Assembly: GCA_030431485.1 (NCBI GenBank)
Contig: JAUIIR010000002.1
Coordinates: 1-64,000, forward strand
Reading direction: 5' to 3'
DNA from: Alphaproteobacteria bacterium
GTDB taxonomy: Bacteria; Pseudomonadota; Alphaproteobacteria; Rhodobacterales; Rhodobacteraceae
Length of the DNA stretch: 64,000 nt
Notes under the pieces: model-generated
What the model was told of the DNA's origin: nothing
Seen by the model: only the letters and a program-made list of their open reading frames with translations
Database searches by the model: none
Shown: positions 50,240-64,000 of the stretch, piece after piece
Numbering within the stretch: position 1 is the first letter of the stretch
How the letters are laid out: each line of letters begins with the position of its first letter
Translations under genes and position numbers: made by a program

Positions 50240-51880
50240 GTGGCCGCAGGGCTTGAGATTTCCTTGTTTGGATCATGCGTGCTGCGGCGTGCGGATGCGC
50301 CCGCGCAAGAGATCACCGGCGCCAAGCACCGCGCATTTTTTGCCTTGTTGGTAACTGCGCCCCTTAACCGGCGGTCGCGCAGTTTCTTGCAGCAAACGCT
50401 CTGGGGATTTGCCGATTACGAAAGCGGGCACCAGAATCTGCGTCGCGCCCTGTCTGATCTTCGCAAGATCCTTGGCGCGGACTTCGATGACATCCTGACC
50501 GTGACCAATAAAGAGATCGAAATCGACATGTCACGCGTCAAGGTCATCGGCCATCCATCGGATGGAACCTTCCTGGACGATCTGAATGTCCGCGAACCGA
50601 CATTCCTGGAATGGCGCGACAGCATTCGTTCTGATCCCAGTTCGGTCAAGGCCCTCTGCTTCATGTCAAACAAGCGTGGTCCGACCCGGATCAGGCCACG
50701 TGTCTGTGCCCTGCCTCTGACGGTACCGCCGGGAGACGCCGAACTGGCCATTGCAGGCGACTGGATTGCCGAGGAAACCAGTCGCATGATGTCGAGATCC
50801 AGCCTGTTGTCAGTGATTTCGCACCTGTCCGGACGTGCCATGTCGCAACGGTTCATCGACATCGTAAATGTGCGGGACACGTTGGATGTCGATTATCTTC
50901 TGACCGGGGCCATGCGGCGCAACGGAGACACTCTTATTGCCGACATCGACTTTACCGATGTGCAAAGCGGCACGCTTCTGTGGAACAGGCACTTGTCCTG
51001 TCCGATGGCCCACTTCTCGCATGATGCCACGCGGTGGTTGGTCAACGTGGTTCAATCCGTTGGACGCGCGATTGCCGAAACTACCCTTCACGCCGGTCGT
51101 CAGACACCCCTGCCGGACTTGCCGGACCACAAGCTTCTCATTGCTGGCGCAACCGCGATGCACCATCCGAAGCTTGGCGATTTCCTGCGGGCACGTGAAT
51201 TCCTGGACGAAGCAGCGGGCCGTGCCCCAGCCAATCCGCATGTCCACGCTTGGCTGGGCAAATGGTATGTGCTCAGCATCTTCAAGAATTACAGCACCAA
51301 TCGGCTTCTGGATACGCAGAAAGCTCTGGACTGTACTGCCCGCGCTTTGGACCTTGATCCACAGTCAAGCTTTGGATTGACCATCGACGGATTTGTAAAC
51401 GGCAATATCCTCAAGAACATGGATGTCGCTGAGCGACGCTACAGCGCAGCGCAAGATATCAATCCCAGCGAAAGCTTGTCCTGGTTGCTGCGTGGGTCGC
51501 TGATGGCGTTCCGCGACGAAGGACAATCCGCGATCCGCGCCACAACGATGGCCCGGGATCTGTCCCCCATCGACCCATTTGGGTACTACTTTGACAGCTT
51601 GGCAAGCTCTGCCCATCTGGCCGGCGGAGACTATGAAAAAGCACTTGAGCTTGCCAACCGGTCGCTTGAATCGAATGATCGCCATATCTCGACGCTCCGC
51701 ACGCGCATCGCAGCCTTGCATGCATTGGATCGGGGCGACGAAGCCCGCGAGACAGCACAAGATCTTTTGCGGCGGTTTCCGCATTTCAACCTGGATGACT
51801 ATCGAAAAACGCACCCCTCTGCTGACAGCAAAACCGGTCAGCTTGTCATGACAGCGCTGGCTGCAGCGGGGCTTTCTTAG
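50240..51880 (+). CDS. SARP-type transcriptional regulator with TolB-like and TPR regions
   Basis: A 546-residue protein. The N-terminal 100 residues fit the OmpR/SARP winged-helix domain (LEISLFGSCVLRRADAPAQE followed by NLRRALSDLRKILG). The middle (about 170-290) resembles the TolB/FlgO-like segment often seen in adenylate-cyclase-type TPR regulators (VDYLLTGAMRRNGDTLIADI). The C-terminal 250 residues are TPR-like helical repeats. There are no membrane segments and no NB-ARC ATPase. The start is a GTG preceded by GAGG. It is the first gene of the seven-gene cluster and sits 26 bp ahead of the next gene, so it is the likely activator of the cluster. Confidence 0.8.
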   Translation: MAAGLEISLFGSCVLRRADAPAQEITGAKHRAFFALLVTAPLNRRSRSFLQQTLWGFADYESGHQNLRRALSDLRKILGADFDDILTVTNKEIEIDMSRVKVIGHPSDGTFLDDLNVREPTFLEWRDSIRSDPSSVKALCFMSNKRGPTRIRPRVCALPLTVPPGDAELAIAGDWIAEETSRMMSRSSLLSVISHLSGRAMSQRFIDIVNVRDTLDVDYLLTGAMRRNGDTLIADIDFTDVQSGTLLWNRHLSCPMAHFSHDATRWLVNVVQSVGRAIAETTLHAGRQTPLPDLPDHKLLIAGATAMHHPKLGDFLRAREFLDEAAGRAPANPHVHAWLGKWYVLSIFKNYSTNRLLDTQKALDCTARALDLDPQSSFGLTIDGFVNGNILKNMDVAERRYSAAQDINPSESLSWLLRGSLMAFRDEGQSAIRATTMARDLSPIDPFGYYFDSLASSAHLAGGDYEKALELANRSLESNDRHISTLRTRIAALHALDRGDEARETAQDLLRRFPHFNLDDYRKTHPSADSKTGQLVMTALAAAGLS

Positions 51881-51906
51881 AACGATTTCAACAAAGGGAT
51901 AATCTC

Positions 51907-53025
51907 ATGTCACAATATGGCGGATTTGGAGGGTTTGGGGGCTTCGGCGGGTTCGGAGGCTTTGGCGGATTTGGAGGGTTCGGCGGATTTGGTGGCGGAA
52001 CGAACTTTACCGGGTTGGGGGGCTTTCTGGGTAGTGAAGACCCCGGCGGATATGACCCCGCGACAACTCTTGGTCTTCAGACCACAGCCGAAGGTTTGCG
52101 GCACCTGACCGAAGACGGCACGACCCCGACCGACAAGGAACTTGGCTTTTCTGATCCCAACAACCTGAGCGGACTCGCCACGTGGGTGCGCGGTTCGCTT
52201 TACGTGAGCGAGTATCTTGCTGGCATTGGCTCTGACGCGATTGTCGACACAGGCGGCGCACCCGATCGTGTCTCGCTGTCTTTCGACGGGACAACCTTCC
52301 TGACGCTTGATCGACCTGCGAACGATCTGCTGCGGTCGCAATGCGCACTTGTGTTAAACTATGCCACCCTACGCGCCGAGCGCAGTGCTGAAATCACATC
52401 ACAGCTTGGCTTTCCGACAGCCTATTTTGCCATGATGCTTGGTCTGCACAGCGCCCAGAACAAGAAGACCTTTGAGTTGATCACAGCCACGCAAGTGGCC
52501 GCGGCGCACACCGCGATGATCGTCAAGAACCATCTGGCCATCCGTCGCCCCGATCAGTTGGACGCGCGGCTGATGCCGATGATCCCGACACCGGGCCACG
52601 GCAGCTTTCCGTCGGCCCATGCGACCGAGGCCTATGCCGTGCTGACCGTGCTTGAAGCGCTGGTGACAGCTTGGGACAGCCATTCGGACGGCGAGCAGGG
52701 CATCAAGGCGCTGCGCGGTCTGGCGGAACGCATTGCGGTCAACCGGACCGTCGCGGGTGTGCATTATCCCATCGACAGCTGGGCAGGTGCCGCGCTTGGC
52801 CGGATCGTTGGTCAGGTTGTGCTGAACCGCGCAGGTGCGGGCGCGCCGGTTGCGGAACTGGCCTACAGCGCGGGCGATCACGACTTTTTCGATGAAGACC
52901 AGCGCGATCCGGCTATCGCAGCGACGAAAGGGCTGACCGCGACTGGGGCCTCTGCAACGCTCTCGGCCAAGCCTGCGTTTTCGTGGCTCTGGTCCGGGGC
53001 CGTGGCCGAAGCGCAGAAGGTCTGA
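51907..53025 (+). CDS. Vanadium haloperoxidase / PAP2-fold protein with glycine-phenylalanine repeat N-terminus
   Basis: A 372-residue protein with all three vanadate/phosphate-binding motifs of the vanadium chloroperoxidase/PAP2 superfamily: K207-NHLAIR-RP (KxxxxxxRP), PSAH at 235-238, and R280-TVAGV-H286-YPI-D290. Soluble character, without the six membrane helices of lipid phosphatases, favours a haloperoxidase or acid phosphatase. Residues 4-31 are a low-complexity (Y/F)GG tract. It lies 26 bp after the regulator and 3 bp before the protease gene. Halide or phosphatase specificity cannot be decided from sequence alone. Confidence 0.85.
   Translation: MSQYGGFGGFGGFGGFGGFGGFGGFGGFGGGTNFTGLGGFLGSEDPGGYDPATTLGLQTTAEGLRHLTEDGTTPTDKELGFSDPNNLSGLATWVRGSLYVSEYLAGIGSDAIVDTGGAPDRVSLSFDGTTFLTLDRPANDLLRSQCALVLNYATLRAERSAEITSQLGFPTAYFAMMLGLHSAQNKKTFELITATQVAAAHTAMIVKNHLAIRRPDQLDARLMPMIPTPGHGSFPSAHATEAYAVLTVLEALVTAWDSHSDGEQGIKALRGLAERIAVNRTVAGVHYPIDSWAGAALGRIVGQVVLNRAGAGAPVAELAYSAGDHDFFDEDQRDPAIAATKGLTATGASATLSAKPAFSWLWSGAVAEAQKV
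51916..51996 (+). repeat. (Y/F)-Gly-Gly tripeptide repeat, nine units
   Basis: One YGG and eight FGG units, coded by 9-bp repeats, lie at residues 4-30 of the haloperoxidase-like protein. Codons vary between units (ttt/ttc; gga, ggc, ggg and ggt), so this is not a fresh DNA-slippage product; the peptide itself seems to be maintained. Confidence 0.9.
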
Positions 53026-53028
53026 GCC

Positions 53029-55095
53029 ATGTTCCCGCACCGACATGATGACGACCGGATCGACAAGTATACCGGTCCCTATGAACGCTGGATCTTCTCC
53101 GAAGACCTCGGACGCCCCTTCGCGTTCCCGTCCATTCGCAAAGGTCCGTCGAGCCACATCACCGCGCTGATGGAAGGTGAGGGTATGCTTGCGAGCACGG
53201 ATGACGTCGAAATCCGCGTTCCGCCGCTCTGGAAGGACAATCCTGACGTCACGCCCTTTGCCATGTGGAACAAGGCGCTGACCCCGGACGCCAACCCGGC
53301 GCAGGACGACGCCGAACTGGCGCGCTGCCTGCATGCGCTGAACGGGACGCGCTACAGGCTCAACATGCCGATTGATCCTGTAACCTGGCCCGCAACCTAC
53401 GACCCAAACGCCACGCCAGAAGGCTGGCAAAAGCCCAAGGTCAAACCCCGCGTCATCATCGGTGTGATCGATGACGGTATTCCATTCCTGCACCGGGCCT
53501 TCCGCGACGCGGCGGGCGACACGCGGATCAACCTGTGTTGGCTGCAGGCCGCGCGGGCGGATACATCAGCCGCCGTTCCTTTCGGCTGCGAAATCACCGG
53601 CACCCGGATCGACCAGTTGCGCACGCAGTTTGGCGATCAGGAGATCCGCGCCTACAAGGCGGCCCATGCCATCGACGCCGATCTGCCTGAAGTGGACACC
53701 GTGCTCATGCACCACGCCACCCATGGCGCACATATCGCCGGGATTGCCGCTGGGAACGACCCCTTTGTGGGGGCAACCGATCTGCCCGACGATGCGGCAG
53801 TGATCGCTGTGCAGTTGCCCAACACCATCGCGTGGGACACGTCGGGTTTTGGCAAGGAAATGATGATGCTCAGCGCAATTGAATACATCTTCAACCGTGC
53901 TCGCATGATCGCAGGCGCCTACAATTGCCCTGAGATTCCGTTGGTGATCAATTTCAGCTACGGCTGGAGCGCCAATCGCCATGACGGGCAATCGAGTTTC
54001 GAACGCGCGGTCGAGGCTCTGATCACGGATCGGCGCAAGGTGCAGCCCTGCACGGAATTGGTCATGCCGACGGGCAACAACTTTGCCAACGACATGCATG
54101 CACGGTTTGCGCCCGGGGATCTGGAGAACGGCGCGGTCAGTTTTGGCTGGCAGCTCAAGCCAGATGACCGCACGTCGAGCTATCTGGAAATCTGGCTGCC
54201 ACCGGACCGCGATCCGCAGGGCTGGACCGTCACCGTCACGCCCCCCTCTGGACAGCCACCCGAGTTGCAGAAAAGCATAGCAGTGCAAGCTGACCCGTTC
54301 CTCCAAGACGGTGACCCGCGTCGCTTTGTCGAGATCGAAAGCGGCGGCAAGAATATCGGCCAGTTGTCTGCAGACAAACATCTGGGCAACCGCTGGCGTG
54401 TGATGCTGGCGATGATCCCGACCGCCGGGAACCTTGGCGCCGTACGGCGCACGCCGGTCGGGCAATGGACCATAACCATCGACACCGGCTCCGATCCGCT
54501 TGGCGAAGGCCAACATCTCGACGTCTGGGTGCAGCGCGACGATGACCCCACGCAGCTCGGAACCGGCGGACAGCAAAGCTATCTGGTCGACCTGTCCCAC
54601 CCGACACCGCCTCGTGTGTTCGAACCGCCGACCCTGACTCCGGTGCGAGGGTTTGGCTGCCTCAATGGCATTGGCACTGCACAGTCTGTGTTCCGCATCG
54701 CGGGCTACATGGAATCCACGCTGAAACCTTCGGGTTACAGCGGCAGCGCGTCGGTAAAGATCGACGTACAGGGTGGCGCTGTTGTCGATGCCAATCTGCC
54801 CGCCGCAACGGCGACGGCGGATCAAGGTTGGTTCAGACCCGGCCTGCCCTCCATCGGAGTGCTGTCGGGATCGGGTGCGCGGATCATCGGGACAAGTGCA
54901 GCCGCTGCCACGGCAACGCGGTTGATCGCGCTGAACTTCATCGCAGGCGAGCCTGCGCGGCAGGGCTTCACAGAGCTGTATACGGACATCACACCAGACG
55001 CCCGAACCCTTGCAAGAACAGGGCCTTACAGGGTGCCACCCGTGTGCGGCACAACCCCGAAACACGCAGAGGAGCAGCCAGTCATCGCGGTGTGA
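53029..55095 (+). CDS. Subtilisin-like (S8) serine protease
   Basis: A 688-residue protein with a complete S8 triad: Asp148 in IIGVIDDGIPF, His232 in ATHGAHIAGIAAG and Ser623 in IIGTSAAAATATRL. About 390 residues separate His and Ser, which is long for the family. The insert includes a predicted beta-rich domain (about 360-560). No signal peptide is seen. It starts 3 bp after the haloperoxidase stop, so the two are translationally linked. It could process products of the same cluster; this is inference from context. Confidence 0.88.
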   Translation: MFPHRHDDDRIDKYTGPYERWIFSEDLGRPFAFPSIRKGPSSHITALMEGEGMLASTDDVEIRVPPLWKDNPDVTPFAMWNKALTPDANPAQDDAELARCLHALNGTRYRLNMPIDPVTWPATYDPNATPEGWQKPKVKPRVIIGVIDDGIPFLHRAFRDAAGDTRINLCWLQAARADTSAAVPFGCEITGTRIDQLRTQFGDQEIRAYKAAHAIDADLPEVDTVLMHHATHGAHIAGIAAGNDPFVGATDLPDDAAVIAVQLPNTIAWDTSGFGKEMMMLSAIEYIFNRARMIAGAYNCPEIPLVINFSYGWSANRHDGQSSFERAVEALITDRRKVQPCTELVMPTGNNFANDMHARFAPGDLENGAVSFGWQLKPDDRTSSYLEIWLPPDRDPQGWTVTVTPPSGQPPELQKSIAVQADPFLQDGDPRRFVEIESGGKNIGQLSADKHLGNRWRVMLAMIPTAGNLGAVRRTPVGQWTITIDTGSDPLGEGQHLDVWVQRDDDPTQLGTGGQQSYLVDLSHPTPPRVFEPPTLTPVRGFGCLNGIGTAQSVFRIAGYMESTLKPSGYSGSASVKIDVQGGAVVDANLPAATATADQGWFRPGLPSIGVLSGSGARIIGTSAAAATATRLIALNFIAGEPARQGFTELYTDITPDARTLARTGPYRVPPVCGTTPKHAEEQPVIAV

Positions 55096-55150
55096 AAAAC
55101 GCGTTCACACCGTCCTCACTCACCTGACGTAAACCATCTCTTTACCCTTT

Positions 55151-55191
55151 GGATCGTGTCGAGCGGCTGCTGCCCCTGCCGCGCACGATCC
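55151..55191 (+). other. Imperfect stem-loop upstream of the haem peroxidase gene
   Basis: GGATCGTG (55151-55158) pairs with CACGATCC (55184-55191), and inside it GCGGC (55163-55167) pairs with GCCGC (55178-55182). No T-run follows. It sits in the 111-bp gap after the S8 protease and ends 15 bp before the next start codon, close to the ribosome-binding site, so it could tune translation or stabilise a processed mRNA end. Confidence 0.5.
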
Positions 55192-55206
55192 TTCGGAGTA
55201 AAGACG

Positions 55207-57000
55207 ATGACGTTCCAAATGCAATCACATGGTGGGGCGCAGAAGAAACGCACTCCCACCGAAAAACCCCAACTTCTCGAAGCATTGCGCCCCGCTGATG
55301 GTGACATTGCCGTAGACGAAGCCGCCGATTTCGGCTTTCTGCTGCCCCCCGGTGGCGATGCCAGCCAATACCTGCCCGCCGTCCCGGATGCCGATCTCGA
55401 CCAGCTTGGCACCCTTATGGTGCCCGACGACAACGACGTGGACGCCACACCAGACGGTGGCATGGCGCCAGTGATGACCTACTGGGGGCAGTTCCTTGAC
55501 CACGAATTGACCGCCCGCACCGACCGCGAAAGCGAACTGACAGGCATCGACGATCCGGCACCCAAAGCCGCAGGCCAAGAAATCGAACGGCAACTCAAGA
55601 ACGCACGCACGCCGCGCTTTGATCTTGACTCGGTTTATGGTGGCCTTCCCGTCGGTACATTCTCAGACCCGTCCATTCAGCACGCCGCATCCGTCCTGCG
55701 CACCGGACTGCGCCACCCGGTCCACACCGCCAAGATGCGCGTCGGGACAGCGGTCGAGCCCGGCCCTCTGCCCGACGACAAGCTCGACCCGCACCGCGAC
55801 CTGCCGCGCTTTCACCAGGTCGAGCAAAAGGTCCGCGACGCCGCGCTCGACATTGCCCGCGCGCAAATGGACGATGACGCATTTGCCAAGTTCGAAGCCG
55901 GTCTGCCTAAACGTGCTCTCATCGGTGACATGCGCAATGACGAGAACATCATCATTGCGCAATTCCACCTGAGCTTTCTGCGGTTCCACAACAAGGTGGT
56001 GGATTTCCTGACCGAGAACGACACTGGTTGGATTGCCGATTTCGACGCGGCCAAATCCCTGACCAAGCTGCATTACCAGTGGCTGGTCGTGCATGGTTAT
56101 CTCAAGGAAATCTGCGACCCGACTGTCGTGAGCCGCATTCTGGACACCCGCAACGCGCATTACGACGCCTTTCGGGCCGACTATGCTGCGCGCAATCCGG
56201 GGCGTGTCGTGGGCAACGTGATTCCGCTGGAATTCTCGGTTGCGGCGTTCCGGTTCGGCCATTCGATGGTGCGCAATATCTACGACTACAACCGTACGTT
56301 TGGCCGCCCAAACGGTACAGCCCCTTTCGATCAGATCTTCGCCTTCACCGGCGGCGGCGGTATCGGGGCGCGGTTCGGGCTTGACCTGAACAGCATCCCC
56401 AAGAACTGGGTGATCGACTGGGCACGCTTCGTGACCCCCGATGCCAGCTTTGCCGATGGCGGCCCGCAGCGCGTGGCGCGTGCAGTGGACACCGTGATCG
56501 CGCCCCCGTTGGGTGACATGGCGAACGAAGGCGCAGATTTCGACACAGACACGCCGGACGGGGCTGCATTGCGTGCCCTCTTCCGGAACCTTGCTCGCCG
56601 CAATCTGCGTCGCGGTAAAAGCCTGCGCCTGCCAACGGGCCAAGCCCTGCACGCCCATCTGCAAAGCATAGGTGCGGTCACAAGCGGTCCGCAGACGGAT
56701 GTTCGGGCATGGCTCGACAACAAGCCCGAGCTTGCAGCCTTCCTCGACGGTCACGCCTTCAACAGCGCCACCCCGCTTTGGTTCTATTGCCTCGCCGAAG
56801 CCGAGGGCACAGCCGGTCCCGGCCTCGGTGAGATGGGCAGCTGGATCGTCGCCGCCACCTTCATCGGGGCACTGATGGACGACGCGGATTCGGCGCTGTC
56901 ACGGGAATTCTCGCCCGACCAAAGCCCCTTGCGCACCCCCGATGGCGACCCGATCGACACGATCGAACGCTGGATGCGCTTTGCGGCGGTCCTCGCCTGA
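55207..57000 (+). CDS. Animal-type haem peroxidase (peroxidase-cyclooxygenase superfamily)
   Basis: A 597-residue protein with the full active-site set of the myeloperoxidase-like family: Q95, D98 and H99 in WGQFLDHEL (distal His and haem-linked Asp), R243 and E246 in GDMRNDENI (catalytic Arg and haem-linked Glu, three residues apart as in myeloperoxidase), HLSFLRFHNKVVDFL after it, and proximal H352 in RFGHSMVRN. No signal peptide is evident. The ATG at 55207 follows GGAGTAAAGACG. It should use hydrogen peroxide to oxidise halides or organic substrates. Its neighbour of unrelated fold at 51907 may do the same. Confidence 0.92.
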   Translation: MTFQMQSHGGAQKKRTPTEKPQLLEALRPADGDIAVDEAADFGFLLPPGGDASQYLPAVPDADLDQLGTLMVPDDNDVDATPDGGMAPVMTYWGQFLDHELTARTDRESELTGIDDPAPKAAGQEIERQLKNARTPRFDLDSVYGGLPVGTFSDPSIQHAASVLRTGLRHPVHTAKMRVGTAVEPGPLPDDKLDPHRDLPRFHQVEQKVRDAALDIARAQMDDDAFAKFEAGLPKRALIGDMRNDENIIIAQFHLSFLRFHNKVVDFLTENDTGWIADFDAAKSLTKLHYQWLVVHGYLKEICDPTVVSRILDTRNAHYDAFRADYAARNPGRVVGNVIPLEFSVAAFRFGHSMVRNIYDYNRTFGRPNGTAPFDQIFAFTGGGGIGARFGLDLNSIPKNWVIDWARFVTPDASFADGGPQRVARAVDTVIAPPLGDMANEGADFDTDTPDGAALRALFRNLARRNLRRGKSLRLPTGQALHAHLQSIGAVTSGPQTDVRAWLDNKPELAAFLDGHAFNSATPLWFYCLAEAEGTAGPGLGEMGSWIVAATFIGALMDDADSALSREFSPDQSPLRTPDGDPIDTIERWMRFAAVLA

Positions 57001-57007
57001 CCGCCCC

Positions 57008-57036
57008 GGCCGGTCCTTTCCTCCCGGGGACCGGCC
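57008..57036 (+). other. Intercistronic hairpin after the haem peroxidase gene
   Basis: GGCCGGTCC and GGACCGGCC form a perfect 9-bp GC-rich stem with an 11-base loop, 7 bp after the peroxidase stop. The following bases are pyrimidine-rich but not a clean T-run. Partial termination or 3'-end stabilisation is likely. Confidence 0.6.
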
Positions 57037-57066
57037 ACCCTTTCCCCTTTGCGACAGGAGCACATC

Positions 57067-59607
57067 ATGCTGCATTTTGACGACTTTCAGGTTGAGACCT
57101 TTCTGCGCACCGGCGAACACGAGGCCACCCTGCGCGCCGAATTCGGAGATGCGCTGTATGATGACCTCGCGCATCTCGCTGAGCAAACAGCACGTGAAGC
57201 ATCGCTGTTCGAAGCCCGTCGTCGAAAGGTTTTCATCCTGCCCGGCATTATGGGATCGCGGCTCAGTGCGATCCGCAACGGACAGGCCGATCTGGTCTGG
57301 ATCGACCCGACCGACCTTGCCGCTGGGGGCATTGCCAAGCTTAAATGGGGTGCGACAGTTGCGGCTACGGGCACGGTTCTGGCTCCCTACCTTCGGATGA
57401 AACTGCGCCTGACGCTGGCCGGATACGATACCGAATTCATGCCCTTTGACTGGCGGCAATCACCTGCGGTCGCCGGAAAGATGCTGATCGACCGGATACG
57501 CAATCGCGGCCTCACCGACGTGTCACTGGTTTGCCATTCGATGGGTGGACTGGTTGCCCGGCAGATGGCGGCAGAGGACGTGGACGGGTCCCTGATCTCG
57601 CGCGTTGTGACCATCGGCACACCAAACCACGGTTCTTACGCGCCGGTGCAAGTGTTTGATCTCAGCCACGACATGCTTGGCCCATTGGGCTTTGCCGATC
57701 TGACCAACGACCGGAAGACGATTATCGACAAGTTTCTGCGTGGCTTTCCCGGTTTGGTCGAGATGATGCCATCCCCCAACAAGCGCCCGGATGAGACCTA
57801 TTTCACGCGCAGTTTCTGGCCCAACGGCGCGGTGCCCCCAACCGCCAATGCCCTGCGTGCCGCCAAACTGGGCCGCGACGATCTTCCGTCACCAGACGCA
57901 CGGTTTCACCAGATCATCGGAACAGGAGAAGAGACCGTGGTCAGAGCGGCCAAAACCGCGGGTGGTTTTGCCTATCACCGCTCGTTTGACGGCGACGGAA
58001 CCGTGCCCCGCGATCTGGCGGAAATGGGCGATGTCGCCCGGTACTATACCGAAGGCGCGCATGGTTGGCTGTGCAACCGTTCGGACGTGATTGCGGGCAC
58101 GATTGATCTGATTGGAACAGGTGCGACCCATGCGCTGGACAGCACGCCACGTCGTAGCACGGTCGAGGCCGCAATGCCGGATGTGACCAGCGCAGATTTG
58201 CGGCTTGAGACCCTGTCGGCGCTGCCCCCCCTGCGCGAAACCGATTTCGCAGGATCGTTCCTGTCCGGACGCGCCGATATTGAACAGCCAGCAGGCGCGA
58301 TCATCTCGGACGCGCCCGCGACCGATCAAAGCGCCTATCCTCGGGCCGTTGTCGATGCGGCAAGCCTGCGCTGGAAAGCATCGGATGCAGAGCGCAAGTC
58401 GGTGCTCCAGTCGCAGCATGAAGCACGGCCGCTCAGCGCGGAAACTCCGGAACGGATCGACGCCTACACGCGTCGTCTGCTGACAATGGTGGACGCCGCG
58501 AGCGCCAATGGACAGGGCCGCAAGCTCAGCCGCGAGCTTGAGACCGCGCTGGAGGGTCTGGAAACCAAAACACCCGGCGTTCTGCCTCCGACCGGAGCAA
58601 CTGCCGCGATCCTCGAAAGGGTGATTGGTGAGGCCGAAGAATTCTTGTCAGTCATGTTCATCAAACGCGCCCTCGTGGCTGCAAAAGCGGTTGGACGGAT
58701 CGTGTCCACGTCGACCGGCCAAGGTTTTGGCACCGGATTCCTAATCGGGCCGGGGGCACTGATGACCAACCACCACGTGCTCCGAAACAGCTTTGCAGCT
58801 AGCCGCGCTTCGGTGCAGCTGCGCTATGAATTGGAAATCGACAGCCGCCAAACCACCGGGCACTGTTTCGCACTCGAGCCTCAACGACTGTTCTATGCAG
58901 ACGAACGAATGGACATGGCCATTGTCGCAGTCGCGCCGACCAGTGAGGACGGCGTCGATCTGTCAGATTTCGGGTATTTGCCACTTATCGGCGTCGAGGG
59001 CAAAATTCGCAAAGGCCAGCCCGTTAATATCGTGCAGCACCCGCTTGCAGGCCGAAAACAGGTTGTGTTCCGTGAAAGCCTTCTGACCGCCCTGCCCCCA
59101 GAAAACGACCATGTCGCGCATTACACTGGTGACACGCAGCCCGGTTCCTCTGGGGCGCCCGTGTTCAGCGATCTGTGGGAGGTGGTGGCGTTGCATCACT
59201 CTGGCGTGCCCGACCAGACTGAGTCCGGGCATTACGTGACCGTCGATGGCGGCATCTGGAACCCTTCTGCCGATCCCGAAATGAAGACAGTCAAGTGGAT
59301 CGCCAACGAAGGCATCCGTGTATCGCGCCTTGTGGCGCATCTCAAAACGGTGGCGGACCGAATGTCACGCGAGGGCACAGGAGGGTCCGATCTGCTGGAA
59401 GGCGTCTTGGCCGTCGGCCGCGATGCCGCGCACACCGGCGGTTTTCAGATGCCGCCCTCAACTCAGCAGGAACGAAGACCCGCACCGAGTACGGCAGTTG
59501 TGCCAATGGCGTCGAACGCGGGCCAATCCGCGAGTCTCACGATTCCGCTGCGACTGGACATTTCCATAGGAGCTTCAGACCGCCCCCCTTTTTCAACCTC
59601 GTCCTAG
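57067..59607 (+). CDS. LCAT-like alpha/beta hydrolase fused to a V8-like serine protease
   Basis: An 846-residue, two-enzyme protein. The N-terminal half (about 45-370) is a lecithin:cholesterol acyltransferase-like hydrolase: oxyanion region VFILPGIMGSRLSAI and nucleophile S158 in VCHSMGGLVARQM, with DGDGTVP and EGAHGWL probably holding the acid and His. The C-terminal half (about 555-790) is a trypsin-like V8/HtrA-type protease: H570 in LMTNHHVL, D616 in RMDMAIVAV and S695 in QPGSSGAPVF. No signal peptide is seen. The ATG at 57067 has CAGGAG upstream. The combination suggests an acyl-transfer or lipase activity tied to proteolysis. Confidence 0.87.
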   Translation: MLHFDDFQVETFLRTGEHEATLRAEFGDALYDDLAHLAEQTAREASLFEARRRKVFILPGIMGSRLSAIRNGQADLVWIDPTDLAAGGIAKLKWGATVAATGTVLAPYLRMKLRLTLAGYDTEFMPFDWRQSPAVAGKMLIDRIRNRGLTDVSLVCHSMGGLVARQMAAEDVDGSLISRVVTIGTPNHGSYAPVQVFDLSHDMLGPLGFADLTNDRKTIIDKFLRGFPGLVEMMPSPNKRPDETYFTRSFWPNGAVPPTANALRAAKLGRDDLPSPDARFHQIIGTGEETVVRAAKTAGGFAYHRSFDGDGTVPRDLAEMGDVARYYTEGAHGWLCNRSDVIAGTIDLIGTGATHALDSTPRRSTVEAAMPDVTSADLRLETLSALPPLRETDFAGSFLSGRADIEQPAGAIISDAPATDQSAYPRAVVDAASLRWKASDAERKSVLQSQHEARPLSAETPERIDAYTRRLLTMVDAASANGQGRKLSRELETALEGLETKTPGVLPPTGATAAILERVIGEAEEFLSVMFIKRALVAAKAVGRIVSTSTGQGFGTGFLIGPGALMTNHHVLRNSFAASRASVQLRYELEIDSRQTTGHCFALEPQRLFYADERMDMAIVAVAPTSEDGVDLSDFGYLPLIGVEGKIRKGQPVNIVQHPLAGRKQVVFRESLLTALPPENDHVAHYTGDTQPGSSGAPVFSDLWEVVALHHSGVPDQTESGHYVTVDGGIWNPSADPEMKTVKWIANEGIRVSRLVAHLKTVADRMSREGTGGSDLLEGVLAVGRDAAHTGGFQMPPSTQQERRPAPSTAVVPMASNAGQSASLTIPLRLDISIGASDRPPFSTSS

Positions 59608-59708: not shown

Positions 59709-61295
59709 ATGGCTAAATCAAAGAAAGAGGGCGTCGGCCACGTGCAGGAGAGCCCAAGCGATCCGATTTTCGTTCCTAATTTTGAGGACATCGAAAGCCT
59801 CAAGAAAAAGATGCTGCAGGAATCGCTGACCCCGGATCGGCTTGAATATGGCGACATACGCGAAACGATATGCGGCACGACCGACGACAGTCAGCCGGTT
59901 GAACAATATGACGGTAGTCTTGGTGTTACCCGCGCGTTCGTCGATGCGCATCAGGCGCCTGTCGGGGTGCTGCGCTGGCATACCAATCTCGCCAGCATCT
60001 ACACCAACCCGGGCAACGTCGCGGGGCAGCGGTGGTGCACCGGCACGCTGATCTCGAACAATCTGTTCCTGACAGCAGGCCATTGCTTTGACCAGACAGG
60101 TGGCGGCTGGAGCCGTCCACGCATCAATGGCACGACCAACATCATCTCTTCGCAGGAAATCGCGACACGGATGAATGTGGAGTTCAATTTCCAGGTCGAC
60201 AGCAACGGTGTGCAGCAAAGCCCGGTCTCCTTTGCCGTGGAAGAGCTGATCGAATACCGGCTGGATGGTCTCGACTTTGCGATCGTGCGCCTGTCCGGCA
60301 ATCCGGGCCAGCAGTTCGGCGTCACCCGTCTGGCCGAAGACGATGGCAATACAGGCGACATGATCTGTATCATCGGCCACCCCGCCGGTCAGCCCAAGCG
60401 GATCGAAGCCGGTCCCATCACCAGCTTTGAGGACTTCCGCGTTCGGTACAACGACATCGACACGCTGGGGGGCAATTCCGGGTCCGGCATCCTGCGCGCC
60501 AGCGATGGCTGCATCGTCGGCATCCACACCAATGGCGGCTGCAACGCGGCGATGACAGGGTCGAACTTTGGTGTGCGGATCACGCGCGTTCGTGCAGCGT
60601 CTCCGACCATTCAAGCGATCGGAGCGCATACCAATACGATCCGCGATATCCTGACCAACACAGTCGCGGATCGGCTCACCACCGTGCAATCGGATCGCCT
60701 GACCACTATCCGCGATGATCAGATCCATTCGCTGCCGCACCTCGACCGTCCGCCAACGAATGTCATTCTGGACAAACGCCCGACCAGCATCCTCGACGAC
60801 CGGGGTCCCACCAACGTCCTGCGCGATTTGCGTCCGACGTCGATCATTGACGACCGGGTGCCCACCAGCGTTGTTCTGGACCGGGGGCCGACGAGCATCC
60901 TTGATGATCGCGGGCCGACCAATGTGCTGATGGACCAAGGCACCAACATCATCGCTGATCGCGGCACCAGCGCCATTCTGGACCAAGGCACAGACCCCAT
61001 CGGCGACCGCAAGGTCAGCGGTCTCGACAAGCAGTTCTCGGACCGCATCCCGGATCGGTTTGGCGGCTTGCGCGGTGGGCGCCTGGGCGAAGCAGGGGCG
61101 ATGCCATTCGTCATGGCAACGCCACATCACGCATCGGGAGCGATGGCGGGTCTCCAGCAGACCTATACAGGCGATGCAGAAGCGCAGCAAATCGAAGAAC
61201 TCGTGATCTACTACGAAGGGCTTTCGGCGATGCTCGAAGAGATCATGGCCGAGATGGCCGAGATCGAAGCGCTGTTCGATGATACCGAAAATTGA
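59709..61295 (+). CDS. Trypsin-like protease with Thr/Ser-Asp repeat tail, putative graspetide precursor
   Basis: A 528-residue protein in three parts. Residues about 70-290 are a trypsin/V8-like protease with an intact triad: H125 in LTAGHCF, D189 in LDFAIVRL and S257 in GGNSGSGIL. Residues about 308-436 are tandem 8-9-residue repeats of the form P-T-(S/N)-(I/V)-x-x-D-(R/Q/K)-G. The final 90 residues include an acidic helix (LEEIMAEMAEIEALFDD). The ATG at 59709 follows AAGGA; the frame runs upstream to 59295 only as read-through. The next gene is an ATP-grasp ligase, which in graspetide pathways joins Thr/Ser or Lys side chains to Asp/Glu. The repeat tail is therefore a plausible substrate, but this remains a hypothesis. 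Confidence 0.8.
   Translation: MAKSKKEGVGHVQESPSDPIFVPNFEDIESLKKKMLQESLTPDRLEYGDIRETICGTTDDSQPVEQYDGSLGVTRAFVDAHQAPVGVLRWHTNLASIYTNPGNVAGQRWCTGTLISNNLFLTAGHCFDQTGGGWSRPRINGTTNIISSQEIATRMNVEFNFQVDSNGVQQSPVSFAVEELIEYRLDGLDFAIVRLSGNPGQQFGVTRLAEDDGNTGDMICIIGHPAGQPKRIEAGPITSFEDFRVRYNDIDTLGGNSGSGILRASDGCIVGIHTNGGCNAAMTGSNFGVRITRVRAASPTIQAIGAHTNTIRDILTNTVADRLTTVQSDRLTTIRDDQIHSLPHLDRPPTNVILDKRPTSILDDRGPTNVLRDLRPTSIIDDRVPTSVVLDRGPTSILDDRGPTNVLMDQGTNIIADRGTSAILDQGTDPIGDRKVSGLDKQFSDRIPDRFGGLRGGRLGEAGAMPFVMATPHHASGAMAGLQQTYTGDAEAQQIEELVIYYEGLSAMLEEIMAEMAEIEALFDDTEN
60630..61016 (+). repeat. Tandem peptide repeat region, about 13 units
   Basis: Degenerate units (LTNTVADR, LTTVQSDR, LTTIRDDQ) lead into seven regular 9-residue units at 60753-60941 (PTNVILDKR, PTSILDDRG, PTNVLRDLR, PTSIIDDRV, PTSVVLDRG, PTSILDDRG, PTNVLMDQG), then three 8-residue units to 61013. 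Each holds a Thr or Ser pair followed three to five residues later by Asp. The two identical PTSILDDRG units (60780-60806 and 60888-60914) differ at six of nine codons, all synonymous, so selection is keeping the peptide. Confidence 0.9.
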
Positions 61296-61303
61296 AGACA
61301 GAC

Positions 61304-61327
61304 GGAAAGGGCCAGCTGGCCCTTTCC
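61304..61327 (+). other. Perfect 24-bp inverted repeat between precursor-like gene and ligase
   Basis: GGAAAGGGCCAG (61304-61315) is directly followed by its exact complement CTGGCCCTTTCC (61316-61327). As RNA it forms a 10-bp stem with a 4-base loop, 8 bp after the stop of the repeat protease and 25 bp before the ligase start. No T-run follows. Its position fits an element that lowers ligase expression relative to an abundant precursor. Confidence 0.7.
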
Positions 61328-61352
61328 AACATTCCCCGACAGGAGATTTCCC

Positions 61353-62393
61353 ATGATCCTCATTCTTTCCAGTGACGACGACGTCCACGCCCAGCACGTT
61401 TTGCACCACATCGCAGAACGCGGTCACAGCGCTACGCTCCTCAACCTCGCTGATTTCCCAAAGGACGCCCATTTGATCTTTGAGGCCGGCCAGTCCAAAT
61501 CCCGTCGCCAGATGCAGTACCGGGGCCAGACGATCGACCTTTCCAAAGTGTCCTCCGTCTGGTGGCGCCGTCCGCAGCCCTATGGGATGCACCCCGACGT
61601 GACCGATCCCGTGCTCGACCATTTCGCCATCCGCGAGGTCGACGAGGCCATCCAAGGCCTCTGGCTGACCCTGGACGCGGAATGGATCAACGTGCCGCAT
61701 CGCGACGAGAACGCCAGCCGCAAGGCGTGGCAGCTTGACGTGGCGCGCTCGGTTGGCCTGACGGTGCCACGCACGCTCATCACCACCGATCCCGACGCCG
61801 CCCGTGCGTTCATCGACTATGAAGGAGTCGACCGCACGATCTACAAACCGTTTCAGGGCAGCGAAGATGCCTGGCGCGAGACCCGGCTTCTCAAGGCGGA
61901 AGAGTTGGACAAGATCGACGCGGTAAAATACGCGCCGGTGATCTTTCAGGAATATATCGAGGCCACCTGCGATCTGCGTGTGACCGTTGTAGGCGATCAG
62001 ATCTTTGCCGCCGCCATTGATAGCCAGAAAGCCAGCTATCGTGTCGATTTCCGCATGGACATGAACGTGGCCATCACACCGACGACGCTGGCCCCTGAAA
62101 CCGAGGCCAGCATCCGCAAACTGATGAGCGCGCTAGGCCTCACGTATGGAGCCCTCGACTTCCGGCGTCGCCCGAATGGCGAAGAGGTGTTCCTCGAAAT
62201 CAACCCGGCAGGCCAATGGCTATTCGTAGAAGACCAGACCGGCCAACCGATCAGTAAAGCCGTGGCGGATTGCCTGATCGACCGGGCCAGAACGGGCACT
62301 ATCCCAAAACGAACGCATCCTTTGATGGACACCGTTCTGGCAACGAACGCTCCTTCTCTGGTCAGATCAGACCAGACCGTCGCCGCGAGATGA
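61353..62393 (+). CDS. ATP-grasp ligase, MvdD/RimK-like (graspetide synthetase type)
   Basis: A 346-residue ATP-grasp protein. The N-terminal preATP-grasp part starts MILILSSDDDVHAQHVLHHI and contains W70-W71-R72-R73-P74, the WRRP-type motif seen in microviridin-type peptide ligases. The central ATP-grasp domain has YKPFQGSEDAWRETRLL (phosphate/adenine contacts) and VIFQEYIEATCDLRVTVVGD. The metal site is E282-x-N284 in VFLEINPAGQW. Such enzymes phosphorylate Asp/Glu side chains and close esters or amides. Family and domain are well supported; the substrate is inferred to be the preceding repeat protein. AGGAG precedes the ATG. The last 32 bp overlap the convergent permease gene. Confidence 0.88.
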   Translation: MILILSSDDDVHAQHVLHHIAERGHSATLLNLADFPKDAHLIFEAGQSKSRRQMQYRGQTIDLSKVSSVWWRRPQPYGMHPDVTDPVLDHFAIREVDEAIQGLWLTLDAEWINVPHRDENASRKAWQLDVARSVGLTVPRTLITTDPDAARAFIDYEGVDRTIYKPFQGSEDAWRETRLLKAEELDKIDAVKYAPVIFQEYIEATCDLRVTVVGDQIFAAAIDSQKASYRVDFRMDMNVAITPTTLAPETEASIRKLMSALGLTYGALDFRRRPNGEEVFLEINPAGQWLFVEDQTGQPISKAVADCLIDRARTGTIPKRTHPLMDTVLATNAPSLVRSDQTVAAR

Positions 62394-63237
62394 CAACCAG
62401 CATCAGAATGGTGACAAGATACGGCAGGCTCGACAGCATTTGCGATGGCAGACCCACGCCCATCGCCTGGGCTGTCAGCTCGCCCAAGGACAGGATACCG
62501 AAGAGCAGCGCGCCGAACGCAACCCGTCCAGTCTGCCACGTGCCAAACACCACCAGCGCAAGCGCGATCCAGCCCCGCCCGGCGATCATACCGTCGGCCC
62601 AAAGTGGCGTGTAGACGGTTGAGGCATAGGCCCCCGCCAGCCCGCACATCGCTCCGCCGAACGCCACGGCGCAGAGCCGGATCAGAACGACCGGGTAGCC
62701 GATGGACCTTGCCGCATCCGCGTTTTCGCCGACCGCCGCAATGATGAGGCCCAGCTTTGTCCGGTTCAGCACCCACCACAGCACAATGGTGCCAAGGACC
62801 GCCAGCCAGACCACAATGTCCTGCGTCAGCAGCGTCGGCCCTATCAGCGGGATGTCGGATAGAATGGGAATGTCGATTTTGGGCAATCCGCTGATGGTCC
62901 GGCTTTCGTACGACTTCCCGAAGAGTGCGGACAGTCCAAGCCCCAGCACCCCGATTGCGAGCCCAGCCGCAACCTCGTTGGCCTTCACACCGATTACCAG
63001 GATCGCAAAGAGCATTGCGACAACCGTGCTGATCAGCGCTGCAGCCGCAAAACCCAGCATATGGGAACCCGTATGGAAGACGCAGATGAACGCTATCGCC
63101 GCCCCGATGGCCATCATGCCTTCAAGTCCAAGGTTCAGAAGCCCTGTCTTTTCCACAACCATCTCACCTAATGCCGCCAACAGAAGCGGCAGGGAGGCGG
63201 CGAGCGTGCCCGCAAGCAGAAACTCCAGCCCGCTCAT
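62362..63237 (-). CDS. BmpA-type nucleoside/purine ABC transporter permease (YufQ-like)
   Basis: A 291-residue integral membrane protein of the BPD_transp_2 (branched-chain/simple sugar/nucleoside) family with eight or more helices, including LNLGLEGMMAIGAAIAFICV (the conserved NLGLEGMM segment). It overlaps the upstream permease gene by 4 bp. Its 3' end overlaps the convergent ATP-grasp gene by 32 bp, so the two transcripts share antisense ends. Confidence 0.9.
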   Translation of the reverse strand: MSGLEFLLAGTLAASLPLLLAALGEMVVEKTGLLNLGLEGMMAIGAAIAFICVFHTGSHMLGFAAAALISTVVAMLFAILVIGVKANEVAAGLAIGVLGLGLSALFGKSYESRTISGLPKIDIPILSDIPLIGPTLLTQDIVVWLAVLGTIVLWWVLNRTKLGLIIAAVGENADAARSIGYPVVLIRLCAVAFGGAMCGLAGAYASTVYTPLWADGMIAGRGWIALALVVFGTWQTGRVAFGALLFGILSLGELTAQAMGVGLPSQMLSSLPYLVTILMLVVISRRRSGLI

Positions 63238-64000
63238 GCCGGCACCTTGCGGTCAAATTCGATGCGGAACCGGATCAGGGTAAAGGTCAGCAGGTAGAAG
63301 AACAAAAGCAGCCCTTGAAAGACCTCGACTGCCGCGACCGGAAGCCCAGCGGACACGGTGGCACTGTCGCCGCCGATATAGATCACCGAAATCAGAAAGC
63401 TCGACGCGATGATCCCGAGCGGGTTCAGCCCGCCAACATAAGCGACGATGATCGCCGCATAGCCGTAGCCGGACGTTACAGAACGCTGGAGCTGACCAAG
63501 CGGCCCGGCAACTTCGCTCGCCCCGGCGATGCCTGCGGCCAAACCGCCCAAGCCAAGACCCAGCCACACCATTCGAGGGGCAGAAAACCCGGCATAAAGC
63601 GCCGCACGCGGCGCAAGGCCCGCCGTGCGCAACTGATAACCCCGAAAGTGATGCTGCATCATCAGGTAGGCAAAGACGCTCGCCAGAAGTGCGAAGATCA
63701 GCGAAATGTTTGTGCGCGTCCCGTCGAACAGGATCGGCAGCAGCGCATTGTCGGGGAACATCACCGTCTGCGGGAAATTGAACCCGCGCGGGTCTTTCCA
63801 CGGACCGAGCAGCAGGTAGTTCAGGATCTGCACTGCAATCAGCGCCATCATCAGCGTGACAAGGATCTCGGAGGCACCAAAGCGCGTGCGCAAGGCCGCA
63901 GCGATCAGCGCATAGACAGTGCCGCCCAAAGCGCCGAACGCGATCATCGCGGGCAGCATCATCGGGAAATCGCCATCCGGGAAATAGACCGGCAGTGCAG
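63234..64000 (-). CDS. BmpA-type nucleoside/purine ABC transporter permease (YufP-like), partial
   Basis: The 3' portion of a permease gene that continues past the right edge of the window. The frame stays open upstream of the internal ATG at 63962 (reading ALPVYFPDGDFP in frame), which also matches the family. Helical segments include MMLPAMIAFGALGGTVYALI and GYGYAAIIVAYVGGLNPLG. It pairs with the permease at 62362. The ATPase and BmpA binding protein are expected beyond the window. Confidence 0.9.
   Translation of the reverse strand, partial: ALPVYFPDGDFPMMLPAMIAFGALGGTVYALIAAALRTRFGASEILVTLMMALIAVQILNYLLLGPWKDPRGFNFPQTVMFPDNALLPILFDGTRTNISLIFALLASVFAYLMMQHHFRGYQLRTAGLAPRAALYAGFSAPRMVWLGLGLGGLAAGIAGASEVAGPLGQLQRSVTSGYGYAAIIVAYVGGLNPLGIIASSFLISVIYIGGDSATVSAGLPVAAVEVFQGLLLFFYLLTFTLIRFRIEFDRKVPA

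Follow-up and report, generated by a model that had tools for sequence, protein, structure and literature searches.

What does a graspetide-type ligase modify when the gene directly upstream of it encodes a complete protease? The question is raised by two adjacent genes in the window, by which we mean the whole stretch of 64,000 nucleotides analyzed here (contig JAUIIR010000002.1, assembly GCA_030431485.1). The host is a marine, Marivita-like alphaproteobacterium, and the six ligases nearest to that of the window (84-88% identity) come from four Marivita and two relatives. Graspetide synthetases use Thr, Ser and Lys as donors and Asp and Glu as acceptors (PMC13097080). A reading made from the DNA letters only had proposed that a repetitive tail on the protease is the ligase's substrate. 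Sequence comparison establishes the adjacency of the two genes, the modularity of the upstream protein, the spacing and conservation of its repeats, and the retention of ligase residues. Judged from these patterns, the tail very probably is the substrate, and it is likely that the ligase modifies the whole enzyme by closing rings in this tail. What this analysis adds to known graspetide biosynthesis is a proposed variant, in which whole enzymes would be modified.

Both open reading frames were found where the sequence-only reading had placed them, with the ligase gene following the 528-residue protein after 57 bases (Table 1). The protease start is taken as the ATG at 59709. An in-frame upstream GTG would yield 666 amino acids, and the shorter form is preferred because relatives begin at the same MAKSKKEG sequence. 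A search of the host's own genome produced one ligase and one tail of this kind.

By its sequence, the downstream protein is a homologue of the MvdD-type pre-ATP-grasp synthetases, as expected for a graspetide ligase. Its Pfam matches over cut-off are MvdD pre-ATP-grasp (PF21068, 4.8e-15) and RimK-like (PF08443, 2.1e-7). The best NCBIfam model is TIGR04187, with 254.7 bits, which is below the curated cut-off of 350, and relatives in the PDB are 5ig8 (1.8e-44), 9bou, 7m4s, 5ig9, 7mgv and 7drm. The WRRP and ExN motifs of peptide-modifying ligases, claimed earlier, are indeed present as VWWRRP and E282-x-N284. Residues R72, R73, K124, K165, Q199, D207 and R209 are unchanged in 42 of 42 tail-linked ligases, and D269, E282 and N284 in 41 of them; presumably these residues bind ATP, metal and substrate. 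The weak matches to RimK-like models might mean that the ligase has another activity, for example the addition of amino acids, and that the repeats are ion-binding elements or merely disordered linkers. Asp-rich repeats can bind ions. However, graspetide-type models and structures outscore RimK by far, and Thr is exchanged for Lys at the donor place (see below); such a function is extremely improbable.

The sequence-only reading had counted about 13 tail repeats, each with Thr or Ser followed by Asp. The repeats are real, but their number is 16 when counted as [Thr/Ser/Lys]-x4-Asp units, with 14 Thr, one Ser and one Lys as donors; the Lys unit spans residues 435-440. Among 100,000 shuffles of residues 301-446, the mean was 4.4 and the maximum 13 units; for the 14 Thr-only units, the shuffle maximum was 9. 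Over the 190 residues preceding the C-terminal motif described below, Thr is followed by Asp or Glu 14 times at i+5 (z +8.0), six times at i+4 (z +2.2) and never at i+6. Six Marivita-group sequences, compared over residues 301-425 with gaps ignored, have invariant acceptors at 14 of 14 places and invariant donors at 13 of 14, the lone exception being Ser/Thr. Other tail positions are invariant in 55 cases and variable in 42 out of 97 (Fisher p 3e-5 versus donors and acceptors), at a mean synonymous divergence (dS) of 0.95 in the tail. Mean ratios of nonsynonymous to synonymous change (dN/dS) in this group are 0.12 for the tail, 0.037 for the S1 domain and 0.060 for the ligase, and the L041 tail (L numbers denote loci) differs by 16 residues, or two units, in frame. 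A model of the whole protein is weak (mean predicted local distance difference test score, pLDDT, 53.5), with low confidence in the tail region. A substrate patterned in Thr/Ser/Lys and Asp/Glu and encoded beside its ligase is what graspetide systems have, and the proposal that the tail pattern fits this chemistry is supported.

The spacing also bears on where the links would be made. The ligase could cross-link the tails of several enzyme molecules, or a tail to a partner, and so build an assembly. A C-terminal helix is predicted in the protease, and ThfB can join two chains to each other when a coiled coil holds them together (PMC12291112). Nevertheless, a local ring agrees better with the constant i+5 distance inside each unit, and we regard links between chains as improbable. 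For rings in whole proteins, ThfB also offers precedents: it can modify protein-sized substrates and was observed to form a Ser-Asp ring of six residues that is not native to it (PMC12291112).

That the upstream protein is a trypsin-like protease with a catalytic triad was confirmed. It matches Pfam Trypsin_2 (2e-14), its nearest solved relative is the glutamyl endopeptidase 1p3c (1.2e-10), and H125, D189 and S257, taken as the triad, are invariant across 16 aligned relatives. By fold, triad and nearest relatives, this part of the protein is a glutamyl endopeptidase-like cargo, and we infer that it is acid-specific. No signal peptide is evident by eye in aligned N-termini of S1 and M43 proteins, whose starts were set mechanically.

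The protease had been read as the leader of its own tail. To find what is common to such proteins, the ligases of the window and of Burkholderia stagnalis were aligned and used to scan a collection of species genomes, which produced 51 relatives, not a census because the peptide patterns favor close relatives. The co-occurrence search that the sequence-only reading had called for came out in its favor, in that homologous ligases are not consistently without a repeat-tailed neighbor. Of the 51 ligases, 40 directly follow a same-strand gene whose product ends in a module resembling PF-x-x-TPHH, nearly always behind a repeat tail. The cargos in front, classed by catalytic motifs and kinship, are S1 proteases (20, one a fragment), astacins (12, one represented by the end of the module only), M43 peptidases (three), an S8 peptidase, a tyrosinase and a small beta domain (three). 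Pfam confirmed the class in 15 of 16 S1 rows, in 11 of 11 astacin rows and in ten cargos scanned singly (L042-L046, L048, L055, L067, L072, L085). The peptidase cargos represent three unrelated folds, with tyrosinase a fourth, because M12A (astacin) and M43 are, as we take it, both metzincins.

The reading of the protease as the leader is not supported. Four peptidase families, a tyrosinase and a non-enzyme domain take the same place, whereas the element they have in common is the C-terminal motif. Because the front part differs between loci while the module is shared, the enzyme part looks like cargo and the recognition element appears to be C-terminal. The usual, though not strictly defining, graspetide precursor is small and has a leader before its core; here it would be a 528-residue enzyme whose only common module is C-terminal. 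P466 and F467 are invariant across 16 S1-type relatives, and the motif P and F across 13 modules from five enzyme families. A helix usually accompanies the module. In most loci the motif comes after the repeats; L060 and L047 have repeat-like units both before and behind it. The sequences show that tail and module are portable, being found also on astacin, M43, S8, tyrosinase and the small beta domain. The module also occurs in sequences from outside the scan, namely those of the window, Burkholderia stagnalis L031, L158 (a second Cellulomonas locus) and L180.

Models trained without a given cargo family recovered four of four M43 modules, the one S8 module and the one tyrosinase module at E<0.01, and no other among the 6610 open reading frames searched scored below 0.01. 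In eight genomes picked for tailed loci, the module model matched ten times: nine of the matches lie next to a ligase, and one is partial and falls in a simple repeat. Among these genomes is one with an additional ligase relative, L162, which sits at the end of a contig and has no module.

The frequency of peptidase cargo (36 of the 40) raises the possibility of a self-maturing precursor, in which the ring-modified tail is cut off by the protease or a neighbor to give free active ring peptides, for example protease inhibitors. Microviridins and plesiocin are protease inhibitors (PMC13097080), and other peptidase genes lie upstream within the window. However, the same place is held by a tyrosinase (L042), which could not cut the tail, and by a domain without a Pfam match (L047, L060, L080). 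Moreover, a recognition-like module follows the repeats in most loci, and no common cleavage signal was seen by eye between units. We consider self-maturation unlikely, if worth serious attention.

A tree of 62 ligases places the 12 astacin-linked rows in one group (99/99) and the four M43-linked rows in another (97/92), with the ligase of L158, whose cargo is an astacin, apart from the other astacin-linked ligases. S1 cargo requires four changes on this tree, and the tyrosinase row has the haloarchaeal S1 row as its partner (96/85); this pairing and the spread of S1 cargo fit an exchange of cargos between ligases. Rows without the module also require four changes. The deep order is not resolved and long branches meet, so the topology decides neither for nor against a single origin of the tailed set.

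The ligase lineage was seen in four bacterial phyla and one haloarchaeon, and similar tails recur there on differing enzymes. In 20 pooled S1 tails, Thr is followed by Asp or Glu at i+5 in 227 cases versus 42 expected, and the next best spacing has z +2.7. For M43 tails and for a mixed set of five (L039, L047, L060, L072, L080), both Thr and Lys peak at i+5 (z 5.7 to 7.5; 6.3 and 7.5 for Lys), whereas Arg as donor and Asn or Gln as acceptor give no such peak. Replacement of Thr by Lys at the same spacing favors ring chemistry. These counts leave out L081 and L084, which are false motif matches, and the L063 sequence is too short for a tail.

Several tails were seen in unusual settings. On a Halorubrum (archaeal) contig (L085), a ligase accompanies an S1 protease that bears the tail module. 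Two pairs occur together in one Cellulomonas fimi genome, where an astacin (L158) has a Lys-rich tail, an S1 protease (L161) has a Thr tail, and each lies beside its own ligase. The small beta domain has no Pfam match, no PDB match at E<=0.001 and low model confidence; in the L047 tail, Lys-x4-Asp units take the place of Thr. Of the matches of the repeat region to Escherichia albertii plasmids (H9, H10), H9 proved to be a different simple repeat and was rejected as chance.

A number of observations weigh against the view that tails of whole enzymes are closed into rings under guidance of the module. Eleven of the 51 scan ligases lack the module (L069, L073-L079, L081, L083, L084), and the locus counts are not independent because many loci are close kin. 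Models trained without the family concerned recover just nine of 21 S1, seven of 11 astacin and one of three small-domain modules at E<0.01. The absence of the module from all 32 loci with S1 homologues but no such ligase speaks for its link to the ligase, yet most of these are weak homologues, the close ones being L033-L035 only (plasmid matches H2 and H5 lie outside this control). None of 12 further ligase relatives checked from a 398-genome sample carries the module, nor do seven of ten ligases from a 296-genome sample around a Cellulomonas genome; of the three that adjoin one, two belong to the Cellulomonas genome itself. The spacing is also not uniform. In astacin tails ([DE]T-x-K-E), the Thr peaks fall at i+3 and i+7 and the Lys peaks at i+1, i+5 and i+9, a periodicity too strong for assignment. 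The L158 tail resembles Lys-x3-Asp, L180 contains i+6 units, and i+6 outscores i+5 in the tyrosinase tail; the Thr peak is small in L046 and L085. Ser to Asp or Glu has a peak at i+4 as well in S1 tails (z +11.6), which makes Ser another possible donor beside Thr.

Among more distant ligases, the module is rare. It is absent from two ligase loci from the window's family (L003, L004, the former's ligase lying outside both the 51 relatives and the tree) and from six plasmid loci. Distant plasmid ligases (H13, H28, H31, H32; L087-L090) were set aside, with neither module nor repeat-rich open reading frame. Within the scan, L069 and L078 are likewise without it, as are the Nocardia loci (L073-L077, L079), in which a small separate upstream protein ends in a sequence like CQT-x-S-x(2)-GSDDG-x(2)-CDSLD and is perhaps a conventional precursor. 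No precursor was seen near the Nitrosomonas ligases of L081, L083 and L084. These are close to the ligase of L060, which does have a tailed precursor candidate, and all three carry K124R and N284H, two of them also D207Y. The lack of a nearby precursor and the changed residues suggest that they are perhaps decayed orphans.

One of the closest published systems is corallotide (group 15, CorA/CorB), which has five Lys-x3-Asp isopeptides. Its precursor is likewise large, with repeated single links, and CorB is assigned to TIGR04187, the best model for the window ligase. In contrast, CorA contains no enzyme part but a helical domain at its N-terminus, its spacing is i+4 with Lys only, and an oxygenase is present, whereas the window has none beside its ligase (PMC13097080). 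The microviridin ligases MvdC and MvdD are homologous, and the PFFARFL leader motif of that system (PMC8939145) recalls PFVMATP, but the microviridin precursor is a separate peptide, and in the tree long branches set the microviridin ligases apart from the tailed ones.

In gene content, our loci recall ATP-grasp branches 7 and 8, for which PMC8939145 (Makarova 2022) predicts no precursors and describes loci with peptidases of several unrelated families, suggested to cut other proteins. A YscW homologue is noted there in branch 7. In the four astacin loci scanned out of 12 (L045, L048, L063, L068), a YscW-like gene lies just downstream of the ligase, convergent on the opposite strand, with a match over cut-off in L045 and below it in the others. 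Group 32, compared here by description and not by network place, also has diverse neighboring proteases, thought to mature peptides or confer resistance (PMC13097080; Carter 2026).

According to these proposals, made for branches 7 and 8 and for group 32, the neighboring peptidases would serve to mature a separate peptide or to resist it, with the real precursor gene located elsewhere. This does not explain why peptidases, a tyrosinase and a non-enzyme domain share one tail module beside the ligase, nor why donor and acceptor places are kept, and we judge it very improbable for these loci. We propose instead that the peptidase itself is the precursor; a literature search whose reach ended short of supplements and of Lee 2020, Ramesh 2021 and Choi and Link 2023 found no account that reads it so. 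More broadly, we lean toward the view that graspetide chemistry also operates at the protein level. One ligase lineage, in four bacterial phyla and a haloarchaeon, would lace the tails of whole enzymes (S1, S8, M12A, M43 and tyrosinase), with a natural C-terminal leader as the guide, and the peptidases would be the precursors that seem to be missing from the peptidase-linked branches.

In the window, the ligase would dock on the C-terminal PFVMATPHH module of the protease and, at the cost of ATP, activate the Asp in every [Thr/Ser/Lys]-x4-Asp unit. The activated Asp would be joined to the side chain five residues earlier, closing a six-residue ring through an ester (Thr, Ser) or an amide (Lys), so that the product would be a protease with up to about 16 tail rings. 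Whether the tail also stays on the modified enzyme is almost evenly balanced, with the scales tipped slightly against it. If so, it might serve mainly as a stiffened, degradation-resistant stalk or tether. Because the S1 domain is nearest to glutamyl endopeptidases, the rings might also mask the tail Asp residues from an acid-specific protease. Autoinhibition by the tail was considered and is disfavored, since a tyrosinase is among the cargos and since an FEGD stretch at the N-terminus of the astacins resembles the astacin pro-segment, a role that we presume for it.

Table 1. Features of the tailed protease and ligase genes in the window
Feature	Coordinates	Strand	Basis
Tailed protease coding sequence, 528 aa: N-terminal region, S1 domain, repeat tail, recognition-like module	59709..61295	+	Open reading frame, Pfam, relatives, model
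S1 (trypsin-like) domain, about residues 103-295	60015..60593	+	Pfam, alignment, solved relatives
Repeat tail, residues 308-440, 16 units [TSK]-x4-D, disordered-looking	60630..61028	+	Spacing counts, conservation, low model confidence
PFVMATPHH motif, residues 466-474, putative C-terminal recognition element	61104..61130	+	Motif alignment
Predicted C-terminal helix, residues 489-523	61173..61277	+	Structure model
ATP-grasp ligase, 346 aa, graspetide-synthetase-like	61353..62393	+	Pfam, NCBIfam, PDB relatives, kept residues

Upstream of the protease gene, on the same strand (50240-59607), the window encodes a TPR protein resembling SARP-type regulators, a PAP2 protein, an S8 protease, an animal-type haem peroxidase and an LCAT-like hydrolase fused to a trypsin-like domain. 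The peroxidase and hydrolase positions recur across Marivita-group loci, and the PAP2 protein opens with a long GGF repeat (51907-52000; MSQYGGFGGFGGF...). On the minus strand (62362-63962), two membrane proteins, ABC permease-like by eye, converge on the ligase gene. In a survey of neighbors across phyla, the main common one is the tailed protein, with a transporter possible among other common, unannotated clusters of open reading frames. A search of an anti-phage library gave weak protease-domain matches only.

The proposal offers an answer to a gap noted in PMC8939145, namely ligase branches with peptidases but no predicted precursor. It would also supply a natural counterpart to a recently engineered arrangement, in which the leader of fuscimiditide (ThfA/ThfB), moved C-terminal of the core, still guides ThfB about two-fold more slowly; that construct has no enzyme cargo of this kind (PMC13003496). 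If the proposal is true, cells use this chemistry not only on small peptides but also on enzymes, which they finish by closing rings in a disordered tail, and the module would offer a portable tag for covalently stiffened protein tails.

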